The notes beneath the pieces are model-generated. The model saw only the letters and a program-made list of their open reading frames with translations, was not told the origin of the DNA and did not search any database. This document shows positions 14,783 through 34,835 of a stretch of 64,000 bases of DNA, piece by piece. Source of the stretch: Spirochaetota bacterium (GTDB taxonomy: Bacteria > Spirochaetota > UBA4802 > JAFGJZ01); the NCBI GenBank assembly GCA_029554345.1, contig JAKPJF010000076.1, positions 1 to 64,000 of the forward strand, in the 5' to 3' direction. The position numbers and the translations under genes were made by a program. How positions within the stretch are numbered: position 1 is the stretch's first letter; each line of letters opens with the position of its first letter.

Positions 14783-16492
14783 TCAGAAAAATTCAATCGT
14801 TCCCTGATTTGAAGACACATCCTCCGAGAGTTCGCTTACAAACGAAAGAAGCATATTAATCTCATATTCACTGACACCGGTCTGAGACGCTATAGATTCT
14901 TTCAGGGAAGGAATCATGCCGGAATAATCCTTACCTTCAACGGCGGATTTTTTATAAAAAGAAAGAGCATCATCAATAATTTTTTTTACATTTAAGAACG
15001 CATCAAATCTATTAATATCGCTCTTCAAAAGATTTTCCATTTCGTCAAAATGAGTATGCATTTTTTTTTCAAAATCATCATGATAGAGCCGGGACTCATT
15101 AACATCATCCGACATCTTCTTTATCGATTGTGCGCATTCTTCAAGAATCTCTTTTTGAATATCAAAAGATCTGTTATAATGTCTGATATTTTTTTTCAGT
15201 GCAGAATAAGTCAAAGAATAATGAGCTGCACCTCTATCCGCCTCGTTTTTTATAAGCCGGGGAATATCACTCACATCTGACAGAGAACCTTCGAGCGAAC
15301 GTTTAAGCTCATCATAACGGGCAAGCTCAATCCGGGTAAGCAGAATTATTCTTTCAAAATTTTTAGCTATATCAGCAAGTTTTTTATAAAAATCGCCGAA
15401 CTTAGCCATATTGCCTTCAACTTCAGAAGCTATATTTTTCAGTTTAAGTTTCATGCCGACAATCTCATCAAGATGTCTTGAATATTCACTCTGCAGCGAA
15501 TTAATTCTATCCCATATTTCCGAAAGCTGTTTCTTCTCGTTATCTTTCTTTTCAGAATTAAAATTGGAAATAAACGATTCATACGAAGTTTCAATATCCG
15601 CAAAAATGGAACTCAGCGTGTCCAGAAACATGTCCATGCTGTGCTTAACAGCTTCAAGTTTTTTTGACGCAAGCCACGAAAAAAAACCATCATCCGACGG
15701 ATAACGCATAAAATAATCAATAAGAAAAATCAGCTTTTCCACATCCTGCCTGAAAAGATCTTCAAGCTGATAATTAACAATGACACTCTCGAGTTTTTCT
15801 CCGGCTGATATCATTATCGATAAATCTTTATTAACAGATAATGAAAGAGAATTCAAACTACGGCCGAATTTATCGAAGTTATCACGTCCCGTAAGCTGAA
15901 AAGATGTAAGACTGTTTTCATAAAGCATATCGATATCATTTTTAATAGATACGAATTTTTCAGATACTGAGACAAGAGAATTCATCTGATTTGAAAACTT
16001 GTCTCCGAGCGCGGCTCCCTGTCTTGAAAGATCGCTCATTTTCTTCGAAATAGTGGCAAGAGAAATTCCGATATCACCCGCCCGCGCAGAAATTACCATC
16101 GTATTTACCGCATACATCTCCACCGACTCAAGATGACCGAGAACAGTAGAAACACTTGTACTGAGTTTATCGATATCAGCAATACTGCTTAATATAATTT
16201 CATGAATATCGGAATCCTCCGACATAATTTTAACTGCCTTGTTTACTGAAGCGGAAAGCCTTTCTTTCGCCGATTTAACGGTGCGGGAAAAAAAGGTGTT
16301 TTCACCGGCAAAACCGTCAACCGGAAAAAAATGCTTAACATACGGAGAAACATCATCTATAAAAGATGAAATTGACTGAGACGATGTTTTTACTTTAACG
16401 GAAATATTTTCAAAAAGTTCCCGCAGATTATCTTTTATTAAAAGCGATTCTTTTCTCAATTTTTCCGATTCGATTCTGATTTCGGAATTCAT
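14783..16492 (-). CDS. soluble MCP-like coiled-coil protein
   Basis: Cytoplasmic protein of 569 residues, almost entirely helical, with no signal peptide and no membrane segment. Residues ~115-165 (LESVEMYAVNTMVISARAGDIGISLATISKKMSDLSRQ) resemble the hairpin tip of chemoreceptors (NLLALNAAIEAARAGE-type). A later segment (YQLEDLFRQDVEKLIFLIDYF) is also conserved-looking. No PAS, heme or other sensor module is evident. A cheY-type gene lies 46 bases upstream on the same strand, so the two likely act together as an unusual cytoplasmic signalling pair; cheW and cheA are not nearby. Confidence 0.65.
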   Translation of the reverse strand: MNSEIRIESEKLRKESLLIKDNLRELFENISVKVKTSSQSISSFIDDVSPYVKHFFPVDGFAGENTFFSRTVKSAKERLSASVNKAVKIMSEDSDIHEIILSSIADIDKLSTSVSTVLGHLESVEMYAVNTMVISARAGDIGISLATISKKMSDLSRQGAALGDKFSNQMNSLVSVSEKFVSIKNDIDMLYENSLTSFQLTGRDNFDKFGRSLNSLSLSVNKDLSIMISAGEKLESVIVNYQLEDLFRQDVEKLIFLIDYFMRYPSDDGFFSWLASKKLEAVKHSMDMFLDTLSSIFADIETSYESFISNFNSEKKDNEKKQLSEIWDRINSLQSEYSRHLDEIVGMKLKLKNIASEVEGNMAKFGDFYKKLADIAKNFERIILLTRIELARYDELKRSLEGSLSDVSDIPRLIKNEADRGAAHYSLTYSALKKNIRHYNRSFDIQKEILEECAQSIKKMSDDVNESRLYHDDFEKKMHTHFDEMENLLKSDINRFDAFLNVKKIIDDALSFYKKSAVEGKDYSGMIPSLKESIASQTGVSEYEINMLLSFVSELSEDVSSNQGTIEFF

Positions 16493-27440: not shown

Positions 27441-28364
27441 ATGGACAACAAAACTCTCGTAATAGACGCGGAACAGGATATTCATATATTAAAGGGTCTA
27501 GCTTCCGAAATCAGAGTCAAAATACTTCAACTGGTTTCCGACGAAACCGTCAGCATTAATGACATTTCAGAAAAACTTTCACTTCCGCAATCGACCGTTA
27601 CGACGAATATTCAGATACTCGAACAGTGCGGACTCGTTAAAACCGAATCAGCTAAGGGAATCAAAGGAAGCAGAAAAATGTGTTCAGCGCTTTTTTCTTC
27701 CTTTTTAGTAAACATCAGAAAAGACGGTTCGTCATCATCGGATTCCGTAAGCATTGAAATGCCGGTTGGACTATTCTTCGATTATCAGGTATCGGCTCCC
27801 TGCGGAATGTGCAGTTCAACCCGCACAATAGGATTTCTCGATTCGCCTGAAGCGTTTCTGATGCCGGAACGTGTGAGCGCGGGACTTCTCTGGCTGGGCA
27901 AAGGATTCGTCAAATATAAATTCCCGAACAACGCATATAACGCGCAGAGACCTGTTTCAAAAATTTTATTGTCGATGGAACTATCGTCTGAAGTACCGGG
28001 CACGAATCCCGACTGGAAGTCGGACATCTTCGTAAAAATTAACGGGAAAAAAATCGGAACATGGACATCTCCCGGAGACTTCGGAGACAAGCGCGGCAAA
28101 TACACGCCTGAATGGTGGAAGAACAAGGGTTCGCAGTACGGAATACTCACCGCATGGGAAGTGAACTCAAAGGGAACATTCATCGATAATGAAAAAATAT
28201 CCGACGTCAAGATAAACGATCTTACGATCAACATGCATCATTCAATCGAAGTCACAGTAGGCGTTGATGAGAAGTCAAAGAATGTCGGAGGAATGAACAT
28301 ATTCGGGAAAGATTTCGGAAATTACGATCAGGACATCTGCCTGAAGATGTTTTTCGGCGAGTGA
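27441..28364 (+). CDS. ArsR-type HTH regulator of glycoside hydrolase operon
   Basis: Protein of 307 residues. Residues ~10-90 are an ArsR-like winged helix (LKGLASEIRVKILQLVSDETVSINDISEKLSLPQSTVTTNIQILEQCGLVKTE). The C-terminal ~210 residues are a beta-rich domain (FFDYQVSAPCGMC, PVSKILLSMELSSEVPGTNPDWKSDIFVKINGKKIGTWTSPGDFGD) found in sugar-operon regulators of this type and probably ligand-binding. It is divergent from the GH12-GH51-GH1-GH3 operon, so it most likely represses or activates it in response to an oligosaccharide. AAAGGAA precedes the ATG. Confidence 0.85.
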   Translation: MDNKTLVIDAEQDIHILKGLASEIRVKILQLVSDETVSINDISEKLSLPQSTVTTNIQILEQCGLVKTESAKGIKGSRKMCSALFSSFLVNIRKDGSSSSDSVSIEMPVGLFFDYQVSAPCGMCSSTRTIGFLDSPEAFLMPERVSAGLLWLGKGFVKYKFPNNAYNAQRPVSKILLSMELSSEVPGTNPDWKSDIFVKINGKKIGTWTSPGDFGDKRGKYTPEWWKNKGSQYGILTAWEVNSKGTFIDNEKISDVKINDLTINMHHSIEVTVGVDEKSKNVGGMNIFGKDFGNYDQDICLKMFFGE

Positions 28365-29273: not shown

Positions 29274-30113
29274 TCAATTTGATGTCTTTGAATTAAGAAG
29301 AGCCGCAGATACAACTTCGCGCGTGTGCTTTATAAGCGAGCCGTCTCCGGCCTTTCCATGACCCGGAATAATTATTCTGCAGTCCTTGAAACGCGCGGAA
29401 AGTTTATCCATCGACACAACCCAAGCGCTCAAGTTTCCGTCTTCGACGAAACCGGGCTTATTCGATTCAGCCGCAACAATCATGCATCCGCCGAAAAGAA
29501 TTTTTCTTTCCGGAAGATAAACAACCAGATTATCATAAGTATGAGTCGGACCCGGATAATAAACTATTGCCTCTTCATCTCCGCATTTGATTTTCTGTTC
29601 TTTATTAATATTAAAAACACGGTTCGGAGGATAAAACTTAAATGAAGCGTAAACATTTCTGTACTTTGTCATTTTTTCATCTTTAAGCCACTCAACCATC
29701 TTCGCCATCGTCGATGGACTTTTCTTTTTCAGAAGTTCGCATGTAAGATCCGAACCGTATACAGAAATTTCTTTTTTTAAAAGAGCTTCGTTTCCGCCAA
29801 GATTGTCTATATGAAAGCCGGTATTGATTTCAGTTACAGAAGCGTCACTGCCGAATGTTTGATTTATCCACGCGAGAACATTCTGCGCTGCATCCGGTGT
29901 ATACGGCGTATCAATCCAGAGAATATCCCTGTCACCGGTTTTCACTATTAACGAATTTCCCGGCCACGGGAAACTGTGAGTTACCAAATAAACATCAGTT
30001 TCAATTTCTGTAATAATCAGCTCAGCACTGAGCTTTATTTCTTTTGATGCGGTGTTTGCCGAAAGAAGCGCTGAAAGCGCAAGAGTAAATAAAACGGCAA
30101 TAGTCTTTTTCAT
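29274..30113 (-). CDS. subclass B1-like metallo-beta-lactamase with altered zinc site
   Basis: Secreted MBL-fold hydrolase of 279 residues with signal peptide (KKTIAVLFTLALSALLSA). The overall pattern is that of B1 metallo-beta-lactamases: zinc ligands H101 and D103 in NTGFHIDNLGGN, H191 in GPTHTYDNLVVYLP, C210 in ILFGGCMI and H252 in PGHG. The first histidine of HxHxD is replaced by G99. In B2 enzymes this position is Asn and in GOB-type B3 enzymes Gln; Gly would weaken the Zn1 site. A beta-lactamase role is possible but untested; other MBL hydrolase roles cannot be excluded. Stands alone upstream of the phosphatase operon end. Confidence 0.8.
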   Translation of the reverse strand: MKKTIAVLFTLALSALLSANTASKEIKLSAELIITEIETDVYLVTHSFPWPGNSLIVKTGDRDILWIDTPYTPDAAQNVLAWINQTFGSDASVTEINTGFHIDNLGGNEALLKKEISVYGSDLTCELLKKKSPSTMAKMVEWLKDEKMTKYRNVYASFKFYPPNRVFNINKEQKIKCGDEEAIVYYPGPTHTYDNLVVYLPERKILFGGCMIVAAESNKPGFVEDGNLSAWVVSMDKLSARFKDCRIIIPGHGKAGDGSLIKHTREVVSAALLNSKTSN

Positions 30114-30172: not shown

Positions 30173-33161
30173 CTATTTCAGTCTCTTCAATGCAAGCATT
30201 GCAATATCATCATTTATCTCAGCCGCGCCGCTGCCGCTTATAAACTCGATTCCGGTAAACTCCTGAACCGCTGAGGCGACATTGCGTATCATCACGTCAA
30301 TTTTTTTTAGAAGCGGATTTTACAACAGCCGAATGAAGTCTTTCGTCGCCGAAAAGTTCACGCGTAGAATTCATCGCTTCGCTTACGCCGTCAGTGTATT
30401 CAAAAAAGATATCTCCGGGTTTCAATTTGATTTTTCTCAAAGTAACTGTCTCAAGAAAGAAATCATTGTCGTCCATCCCGAGCGGAAGTCCGCCCGCTTC
30501 GAGCCGCAGTACCGATTTGGTTTTATGGCTGTAAAGAAGGGGTTCCAAATGACCCGCTGAAGCGTATTCGACTTCATGAGTCCGCACATCGATGACACCG
30601 ATGAATAAAGTCACGAATATAGTTTCAGGTGTTTCTGTAAAAAGCTGTTTGTTTATTTCTGAAAGAATCTTGATAATATCTCTTTCACCTCGTTTGACGA
30701 TACCGTGAAGATGCGCTCGCACTGTCGACATTACAAGAGCCGGTCCGACTCCGTGGCTTGAAACATCCGCCATGCAGAAAAGAAGACGGTTTTCATCCAG
30801 CTCAATCAGATCATAGTAATCGCCTCCCACTCCTTTCATCGACCGGTAAAAATGCCCTATTGAATAATTATCCCCGAGAGTTGCCGGAACTGAAGACGAA
30901 AGCAGCTGCTTCTGAATCTCGCCTGCAGCAGAAATATCACCGCGCATCTCCTCACGGTCGCGGAGTCCCTTCATCATTTCATTCAGCGAAACGGCCATAT
31001 CCTCGATTTCATCCATGCCCTTTTCAGGAAACACAGCTGAGAGATCCCCCTTTGCCGCTATTTGAGCCTGAGAAATTATACCCTTAATCCGCCTCACGAT
31101 AAAACCAGAGAATATGAAAGTAAACATAACAGCCGCAAATGCCAGAATTCCGGCGCCGATTAACATCTTCCTTCCATTGTCCTTTATCTTAAGCATTCCA
31201 TCGGTTCCGTCGACAATCACGGTATTGTATCCTGTAATCCCGGCCGAGATAACATCATGGACTATACCCGGAGTCCCGTTTTTGTATCCGAAAAATCCTA
31301 TTTCCGGAACAAACGGCGTCGAGTCGAGCTTCCACATATATTCTTCGGCTTCGCTTCTGCTGAAAGCGGCAATACCGTCATCAATCATTTTTATTCTATT
31401 TGAACCGTCGGCAAATTCAGGCAAAGCAGTCTCCGACATCCCGCTGTATATCCAATTACGAAGCGCTTCAAAACGTTTTAGTGCTGAATATCTAAAAACA
31501 GGATCACGCAGATAGTCTCTGAACTCATCAGAGCTTTTTCCGTGACGAAGAGCAACATAATCATACAAAGCGCTGTCTCGGAAAGTTCTAAACGCCTCAT
31601 AGGACACGACACCCTGCATGGTTGAATAGTCCTTTTTAATTCTGTCTAGTTCAGCCTTAAGCTTCAGTTCGGCTTCCTTGAGATCATCAGATTTCTGAAC
31701 AAGTGATTCCTTTTCCGGAAAATCTTCTTCATCTTTGGAAACAGATGCAGCTTTTAACTGCTCAGCAATCCTTGCCGATTCATTCCTGATCCTTTTGATT
31801 TCATCGTTAATCTCAGCGTTACGCCTGGTCTGTAAATCAGCGTGCGGATTGTTCTTTGCGAAGGAAACAGATCTTTCATTTACAAGCGACTTATATTGCG
31901 AGTATAAAGAAACATATTCCGGATCATTTCCCGGAGGAGTTTTGGCATCCTTGAGTTCTTCCATTCGTTTTTTCATCTTAACCGTGAGTGTTGCAATCAG
32001 GCCGCATATTCTATTATCTTCTTTAAGCAGTTTTTTCCATGCATTAAATTCAGAATCGAATTCATTAAGTATAATTCCGCCACGCGAAAATGTTGCAGGA
32101 TTTCTGTAAACTCCGAGATATCTGACAAGATAAGATTTACCATTAATCAGGTATTGCGTATCAGGTGCATTGCCGGAAACTGCGCGTGTCGATGCGGAAG
32201 AAAAAAATTCATTTCTGTCATTCTTGTATAAATCAGAAGAAAGAAGATCTGCGAAACGGGATCCGGCATCCGGAAGATCCGGTCCCGTATCCAGTGTAAC
32301 CTCTCCGATTTTGTCGGAAGAAACGATACGTACAGCACCGCCTGATATGCCGAGCTCTTCAATTCTCTTAAATTCTTCTTTATAATAAGGCCTCAAAGAT
32401 GCGCGGAGAATCCTTTCGGCATAAGCTTTTCGCTTCATGGCGGATGAAACCCTTTTTTCCCATGAAACAAGTTCAGTTTTCATTTTATTATATTTAATCA
32501 TATCCTGTTTAGAAAGCGAAGACGGATCACCGAGAGCATTGATTTTTTCACGGACAGTATCAACGCTGCTCTCAATCTCACTTAAATGCTTGGCAGCTGC
32601 TGCAGCTCGGGAAGCGCGGTATTGAATTATCTTAAACGCGGCATCGGCAACATCTTCTCCGCTTTTCCGTTTGAGTCTTTCTTTGACGGATTCTTCAAGA
32701 AGTTCTATATCCTTATCTGAAAGATATCTGCTGAAATATGTATCATACGAAACAGGATGATATGTATATCTCACCTTCATGCCGAAAAGTTTTCCGAGAG
32801 AACGGAAACTGTTCATTGCAGATTCATCTTTTCTATAATAGACAGCTTTATATTTGCTCAGATCCTGCTTCTTTTCTTTTATCCTTATACGCATATCCTC
32901 GATGAGAATAAGATGTGAGGATATATTTTCCATGTCAGAAATGACAGAGTTGATAACACGCAGAGAATTCTCCGTCTCTGCAGCATACTCCTTTTCGAGA
33001 AGTTTCTTCTGGTATATATAATTGAATGCCGCAGCAGCAAAAAGAATAACTAAAACGAAAACGCCGGTAAGTACAGACAGCTTGAAGCGTATTCCCGGCA
33101 TCAATCTTCTCAGAAAATGTTTTCTTTTAATTAAATTCTTAATCGGATTCATTATTCTCAT
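30173..33161 (-). CDS. membrane HAMP-PP2C (SpoIIE-type) phosphatase, frameshifted near the 3' end
   Basis: Phosphatase that should dephosphorylate the STAS antagonist encoded upstream. Membrane helices at ~27-50 and ~655-680 flank a large coiled-coil outer domain; then HAMP and a PP2C domain with VGGDYYDL, CMADVSSHGVGPAL, ASAGHLEPLL and FEYTDGVSEAMN. The uninterrupted frame stops at 30297 after ASKKN. Just before that is a run of eight A (30301-30308 on the plus strand as T8). Dropping one A continues as IDVMIRNVASAVQEF...INDDIAMLALKRLK to a stop at 30173, which restores the normal PP2C end with its conserved metal-binding DD. So it is either a sequencing indel, a recent mutation, or slippage-controlled. 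The start overlaps the anti-sigma gene by 23 bases. Confidence 0.88.
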
Positions 33162-33573
33162 TATTTTTCTCCCACTTAAGGATGAGGCGGTTCCCGCCGT
33201 TTTCGCTTACCTCGTAACGGACGTCCATGAATCTTCTGTAAACGCCGATTCCGAATCCTCCTTCAGCTCCGTCAGCGGGTTCTTCCTGAGCTGAAATTTT
33301 TTCAAGCGGATTATACAAAGGTGCAGTATCTGAAAGCGTGAATTTAAAAGAACCGTCTGACGAATACATCTCAAGAATTATTACTCCATCGGTGTTTTCT
33401 CCATAACCGTGCCTCATAATGTTAGATACGGCCTCATCGACTGAAAGGACAATATGCGATGCATCCATTTCAGGAACATGCCCGTCGATAAAAGACGCAA
33501 CCTCTGCGCGGGCTCTTGAAAGTTCCGCAAGAGAATTAATCAGCGTCACAGAGCGGAATGATCCCGAATTCAT
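33139..33573 (-). CDS. RsbW-like anti-sigma factor/serine kinase
   Basis: HATPase_c_2 protein of 144 residues. N box VDEAVSNIMRHGY and the G-rich ATP lid EGGFGIGVYRRFMDVRYE are present, followed by GGNRLILKW. Such kinases phosphorylate a STAS antagonist or hold a sigma factor. It overlaps the STAS gene by four bases and the phosphatase gene by 23, so the three form one translationally coupled partner-switching operon. No sigma factor gene is adjacent; the output could be a sigma factor elsewhere or another target. Confidence 0.9.
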   Translation of the reverse strand: MNSGSFRSVTLINSLAELSRARAEVASFIDGHVPEMDASHIVLSVDEAVSNIMRHGYGENTDGVIILEMYSSDGSFKFTLSDTAPLYNPLEKISAQEEPADGAEGGFGIGVYRRFMDVRYEVSENGGNRLILKWEKNNENNESD

Positions 33574-33920
33574 TGCAGATCTTTTACTGCCGCAGCGGTT
33601 TCAATATAAAGTTGAACTTTTTTAGTAAAATACATAACCTTGAATGTATCGGTTATCGTTTTATTCGCTTCTGATACCGCTATTATCCCGCCCTTAGCTT
33701 TGACAGAATTGAGAATAGCGTTCAGGACGCCGATACCGGCTGATGAAATGTAAGTACAATTCGCGAAATTAAAAACTAATTTTACGTTGCCTTCCGATAT
33801 TTTCTTTTCGGCACTTTCCTTAAGTATTGGAGCCGTATGCGCGTCTATCTCGCCTGCAAGCTCCAGAACCATAACACTGCCGTTTTTATTTTCAGTAATT
33901 TTCAAAACTGCTTCAGCCAT
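33570..33920 (-). CDS. STAS anti-sigma factor antagonist
   Basis: STAS-domain protein of 116 residues. The phosphorylatable serine lies in CTYISSAGIGVLNAI, preceded by the usual VMVLELAGEIDAHTAPIL start. In partner switching the unphosphorylated form binds the RsbW-like kinase. It lies nine bases after an unknown 301-residue gene, so that gene is probably part of the same operon. Confidence 0.92.
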   Translation of the reverse strand: MAEAVLKITENKNGSVMVLELAGEIDAHTAPILKESAEKKISEGNVKLVFNFANCTYISSAGIGVLNAILNSVKAKGGIIAVSEANKTITDTFKVMYFTKKVQLYIETAAAVKDLQ

Positions 33921-33929
33921 TATTCCTCC

Positions 33930-34835
33930 CTATTTGAGTTCATCCCAAAGATTCTTTTCCGTAATCATTTTATAAAGAATTCTCTCAAGTCTGTCGATGT
34001 CATAAAAATGTTTCGCTGAAGCATTGCCCTCAAAAATGTAGCCGTATTTGCGGATAAACTGAACCGCTGATGAAATATCCCCGTCAAGAATGCTTTTAGT
34101 GATGCGGAAATATAGATCAACTGCCATCTGATTTTTCAGCTCATCCTCGAAACCTTCTTCACGTTTGTTCATCGCAGCAACGAGTTTACGGACGTCATTC
34201 GAAGCGTAATCCTCGCCGTCCGAAAATCTAATGATATATGAGGCTAGAAGTTTTCTGCATTTTGAAATATTTCTGTAACTGCTGGCGATAAGAATATTGT
34301 CATACAGACGTTTAATTTCTCCGTCCAGTCTGATCTTCTCAAGAGAGGCATCAAGTTTTACAGGATCGAAAGCCGATTTTAAGGCATCTTTGCCTATTCC
34401 GCCGATCGCGTTGGAGAAGATTTTTTCACTTTTTTCGCTTATCTTTTTTTGGAATTCATTTAACGGCTGGCTTATGATTTCTACGAAATCCAAAGCTTCG
34501 GGGCTTCCCGAAACCTTTGTGTGAAGCTGCATTTTCTCAAGAAAAAAAATTGAAGAATCCCCGAGAGCACTCAAAGATTCATCGGCAGCATGCATAATAA
34601 GCCTTTTGCAGCGCGGACCGATTGTATTAAGAAATGCCTGATTCTGGGATTCAAGAGCTATGCGTTCCATTGTTTTGCGGACATTAATGTCGCTTTGTCT
34701 TTTCTGCCATCCGGCATCAACAACCGGCTTATACAGGTATGAGACAAAAGAATCTTTACCGCTTTTGGCCAGAATACGTATGCCCTTGATCAGTTCCTGA
34801 GACAATGAAACGGAAACTTTGTGCTGTAATTCCAT
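33930..34835 (-). CDS. unknown helical protein heading the partner-switching operon
   Basis: Soluble protein of 301 residues, predicted almost all helical, without a signal peptide or membrane segment. No family recognised. It has regularly spaced charged helices (FVEIISQPLNEFQKKISEKSEKIF, AVDLYFRITKSILDGDISSAVQFIRKYGYIF). Its tight spacing to the STAS gene suggests that it is an input, output or scaffold for the switch. The 34836-35070 gap upstream is AT-rich and holds no gene; it should contain the operon promoter. Confidence 0.7.
   Translation of the reverse strand: MELQHKVSVSLSQELIKGIRILAKSGKDSFVSYLYKPVVDAGWQKRQSDINVRKTMERIALESQNQAFLNTIGPRCKRLIMHAADESLSALGDSSIFFLEKMQLHTKVSGSPEALDFVEIISQPLNEFQKKISEKSEKIFSNAIGGIGKDALKSAFDPVKLDASLEKIRLDGEIKRLYDNILIASSYRNISKCRKLLASYIIRFSDGEDYASNDVRKLVAAMNKREEGFEDELKNQMAVDLYFRITKSILDGDISSAVQFIRKYGYIFEGNASAKHFYDIDRLERILYKMITEKNLWDELK

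Follow-up and report, generated by a model that had tools for sequence, protein, structure and literature searches.

A probable isolated one-base indel at an A8 run in the SpoIIE-type phosphatase gene of a spirochaete partner-switching operon

The sensor phosphatase gene of a partner-switching operon in an uncultured Spirochaetota bacterium is interrupted at a run of eight adenines, and the missing end of its catalytic domain is encoded in a shifted frame. In the 64,000-nucleotide stretch of DNA analysed here (the window; contig JAKPJF010000076.1), the break is very probably an isolated single-nucleotide indel, that is, either a loss-of-function mutation of recent origin or an error of the consensus, and not a genetic switch. 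This reading is favoured because orthologues, paralogues and other A8 and A9 runs are intact, and because the detached tail retains its coding quality.

The phosphatase is the last gene of a four-gene operon on the minus strand (30173-34835), in which genes overlap or are closely spaced (Table 1). With phosphatase, kinase or anti-sigma factor, and STAS antagonist encoded together, the locus is a predicted partner-switching module. The SpoIIE match and the STAS and HATPase neighbours bear out an earlier note on this DNA, which had assigned the gene as the PP2C of such an operon. Like RsbU/SpoIIE-type PP2C modules, the operon combines a STAS antagonist, a HATPase kinase and a membrane-type HAMP-PP2C protein. 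It differs from them in that the assembly places the C-terminal metal ligand out of frame, and in that no family matches either the N-terminal sensor region, which is large, or the 301-aa product of the first gene. Relatives, including Spirochaetota and Turneriella records, keep the order 301-aa protein, STAS, HATPase and sensor-PP2C as far as their contigs reach.

Table 1. Operon genes and elements of the interrupted phosphatase gene, in window coordinates unless residues are given.
Feature	Position	Strand	Details
301-aa protein, first operon gene	33930..34835	(-)	Neither Pfam nor NCBIfam match
STAS anti-sigma factor antagonist (RsbV/SpoIIAA type), 116 aa	33570..33920	(-)	Above NCBIfam TIGR00377 cut-off
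HATPase_c_2 anti-sigma-factor-like kinase (RsbW/SpoIIAB type), 144 aa	33139..33573	(-)	
Sensor phosphatase frame, 954 aa	30297..33161	(-)	HAMP and cut-short SpoIIE/PP2C
N-terminal region of sensor phosphatase	~680 aa		No Pfam match
HAMP domain of sensor phosphatase	residues 684-735		Pfam
SpoIIE/PP2C domain of sensor phosphatase	residues 790-949		Stops at profile position 156 of 192
A8 run, sense strand	30301..30308	(-)	Point where the frames part
Premature TGA stop of phosphatase frame	30297..30299	(-)	
Shifted frame, missing SpoIIE C-terminus	30173..30301	(-)	42 codons and TAG, with NDD motif

The minus-strand junction reads TCT AAA AAA AAT TGA, with the A8 run at 30308-30301 and the TGA at 30299-30297, which confirms the frame break that the earlier note had placed at this run. 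The stop, described there as lying right after the run, is indeed adjacent, but a T at 30300 separates the two and the TGA begins one base past the run. The shifted frame overlaps the annotated one, with ATT as its first codon (30301-30299) and TAG at 30175-30173. Its translation is IDVMIRNVASAVQEFTGIEFISGSGAAEINDDIAMLALKRLK, and the C-terminal end of this tail is ...EINDDIAMLALKRLK.

The homology and coding signal of the tail are beyond chance. Reading through the junction extends the match to SpoIIE (PF07228) from profile position 156-157 to position 191 of 192 and raises the score from 122.4 bits for the annotated frame (cut-off 25) to 142.1 bits. By a three-periodic Markov model fitted to long source-genome frames, the tail scores +0.143 per codon, against a 5-95% range of 0.046 to 0.324 in real genes. 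The other two frames over the same stretch score -1.10 and -0.79 per codon (wrong-frame range -1.12 to -0.26). Compared with the C-termini of nine orthologues, the tail shows 30-46% identity in an alignment that is gap-free at the junction; the domain part upstream of the junction is 47-60% identical to the same nine. The statement that the tail continues the family C-terminus exactly is thus supported by the profile, although "exactly" is too strong at such identities. Since the tail is undecayed, the event is recent, absent from the organism itself, or tolerated.

Relatives provide the clearest comparison. The phosphatase is a continuous single frame in all nine full-length orthologues, and the same four-gene operon surrounds these genes wherever contigs show it. 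Eight of the nine carry no slip-prone run at the junction, while the remaining one, from genome G014 (same order), has CGC AAA AAA ATC at the same codons, an A7 run kept in frame. Two further orthologues run off their contigs before the site, among them that of congener G001 (80% identical), in which contig C322 ends at codon 746 of the phosphatase. Contig C76 of G001 was considered as a source of the missing 3' end and set aside, as it holds later genes only and does not adjoin the phosphatase there. An order-wide search found no additional orthologues. A programmed shift should reappear among relatives, and this one is single; it does not mark a programmed or conserved recoding site. The earlier note had itself named relatives with one continuous frame and no homopolymer as evidence against the phase-variable switch by polymerase slippage that it proposed, and eight of the nine orthologues are of this kind. 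With all nine orthologues continuous, the proposal is not supported.

Within the genome itself, the other 14 SpoIIE genes all extend to profile position 189-192. As the 3.0-Mb genome encodes 15 phosphatases of the SpoIIE family, the loss of one might be buffered. The surroundings of A/T runs were surveyed in 384 kb, comprising the window and stretches around known loci, a non-random sample of about 13% of the genome. In this sample, 86 A/T runs of 8-9 fell within frames called as coding. Two of these 86 were flagged as a broken frame with a coding alternative. One, at L078:7591, is an ordinary thiL/thiE overlap (gene names by sequence reading), and its dismissal left the phosphatase site alone. 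The gene ending at 28364 was also considered as a frame break and rejected, as it aligns with the congener right to its end. A8 runs are kept in frame as a rule here, and nothing suggests general mishandling by the assembly. Relative to shuffles of synonymous codons, coding A8 runs occur near expectation (68 observed vs 76.6 expected, z -1.2). A9 runs are depleted (13 vs 29.9, z -3.7), as are runs of A10 and longer (1 vs 15.6). Slippage avoidance usually starts at nine bases (PMC1088944), and A8 falls below the avoidance threshold in this genome. A 569-aa frame at 14783-16492 (-), with no Pfam match over cut-off, contains four A/T runs of 8-9, all intact.

The functional consequence depends on the final metal ligand. 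In SpoIIE of B. subtilis, manganese is coordinated by Asp628, Asp746 and Asp795 (PMC3517971). From the order of motifs and an alignment with Rv1364c, we infer that the NDD motif of the tail would be the counterpart of Asp795. This motif is encoded in the shifted frame only, and the annotated product lacks a complete SpoIIE domain; the earlier observation that the metal-binding Asp pair is lost from the annotated frame is therefore correct. The truncated phosphatase, as written, should be inactive, because the end of the catalytic domain and the last metal-ligand Asp are missing. An inactive phosphatase would leave the STAS protein phosphorylated, and this in turn would fix the partner-switching module in one state.

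Restoration of the full-length protein at the level of expression is an improbable alternative. Transcriptional slippage, or +1 ribosomal slippage, at the A run could yield some full-length phosphatase as a minor product alongside the truncated form, as in Citrobacter tssM1. The layout resembles that of tssM1 in Citrobacter rodentium, the best-studied parallel, in which a poly-A run shortly precedes the premature stop of an interrupted gene and the tail represents the conserved functional C-terminus (PMC4256274). In addition, dnaX A7 and A8 sites have been suggested to slip (PMC3711429), and the tail in the present gene is undecayed. However, tssM1 carries an A11 run from which two products were demonstrated, with ~20% frameshifting (PMC4256274), whereas the phosphatase has an A8 run, a length that the genome does not avoid. 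The frame of tssM1 is restored by added adenosines (PMC4256274), but here one added A fails. Only a net change of -1 or +2 bases brings the tail into frame, and +1 A leads to another short product. Homopolymer errors in E. coli and Buchnera are dominated by one-base insertions, with deletions rare, and that survey recorded no frame-restoring transcription error (PMC5574713). As the commonest slip of RNA polymerase is +1 A, it would not restore the phosphatase frame. Features expected of programmed realignment also point away from this explanation. A slippery run with a frame transition kept in orthologues is not seen, since the run is present in one of nine, as A7 in frame, and absent from the others; nor is the run length avoided in coding sequence, where avoidance starts at A9. 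A search for a stimulatory RNA structure downstream of the A8 run found none that was stable (z +0.48). For E. coli RNA polymerase, slippage is not detectable below eight A and becomes detectable from ~A8 (PMC6260861). The run thus lies at the edge of polymerase slippage in E. coli, and low-level read-through is possible. There is only a slim chance that the A8 run leaks at low frequency, so that few transcripts or cells would make the full phosphatase and the module would be active in few cells.

Heritable switching is a separate matter. The earlier note had merged transcriptional slippage, which generates RNA heterogeneity from fixed DNA, with phase variation, which is a heritable change of the DNA. 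In the latter case, replication would alter the run length and switch the phosphatase on and off across the population, an outcome that we regard as very unlikely. Coding poly-A tracts can be hypermutable, for example in Listeria inlA (PMC2831843), and the operon is a signalling system in which switching would have effects. Yet the A8 run is short and 3'-terminal, while surveyed poly-A tracts cluster at 5' ends (PMC2831843). Moreover, the tract is not retained across orthologues, as a phase-variable tract would be, and intact A8 runs are common elsewhere in the genome. Tract instability through defective mismatch repair was also weighed and dismissed, as MutS and MutL are present with open frames. 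It is scarcely credible that re-initiation past the stop yields the tail as a separate product able to complement the truncated phosphatase in trans. Tail-frame GTG and ATG codons do occur a few bases past the TGA, but they have no clear ribosome-binding site in the sequence. A piece of ~40 residues with one metal ligand would be unlikely to fold or assemble alone, and none of the relatives has a split gene.

The favoured reading is an isolated indel, by which a short A run close to the 3' end of the final operon gene changed its length by one base. About half of the weight would fall on a real recent mutation in the sequenced population, and somewhat under half on a consensus error in the assembly. 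The undecayed tail implies either a recent lesion or an artefact. The earlier alternative of a sequencing indel survives as far as the indel is concerned, but it was too narrow, since a true, recently arisen indel in the sequenced population and a sequencing error are equally likely. In an analysis of frame transitions in 1106 genomes, sequencing errors or indel mutations were held responsible for unclustered frameshifted genes confirmed by BLASTp or Pfam, with breaks towards the 3' end leaning to real indels (PMC3711429). The phosphatase resembles the GeneTack "singletons" of that work (PMC3711429) in being restricted to one genome, in having homology either side of a break that falls at a short A run, and in lying near the 3' end; there are no differences of note. 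In annotation, the phosphatase gene is best entered as frameshifted, or as possibly mis-assembled, rather than as a short phosphatase or a switch. A bistable switch, if shown, would place a signalling phosphatase among the few regulators that are recoded or phase-variable.

Directly 3' of the phosphatase, at 29274-30113 (-), lies a gene for a subclass B1 metallo-beta-lactamase-like protein, which matches NCBIfam NF033088 with 175.7 bits, under the cut-off of 200. The lactamase-like copy of congener G001 (C76, L042 6120-6523) is without ~140 internal residues (66-206 in the numbering of the window protein), and its gene sits apart from the phosphatase operon.
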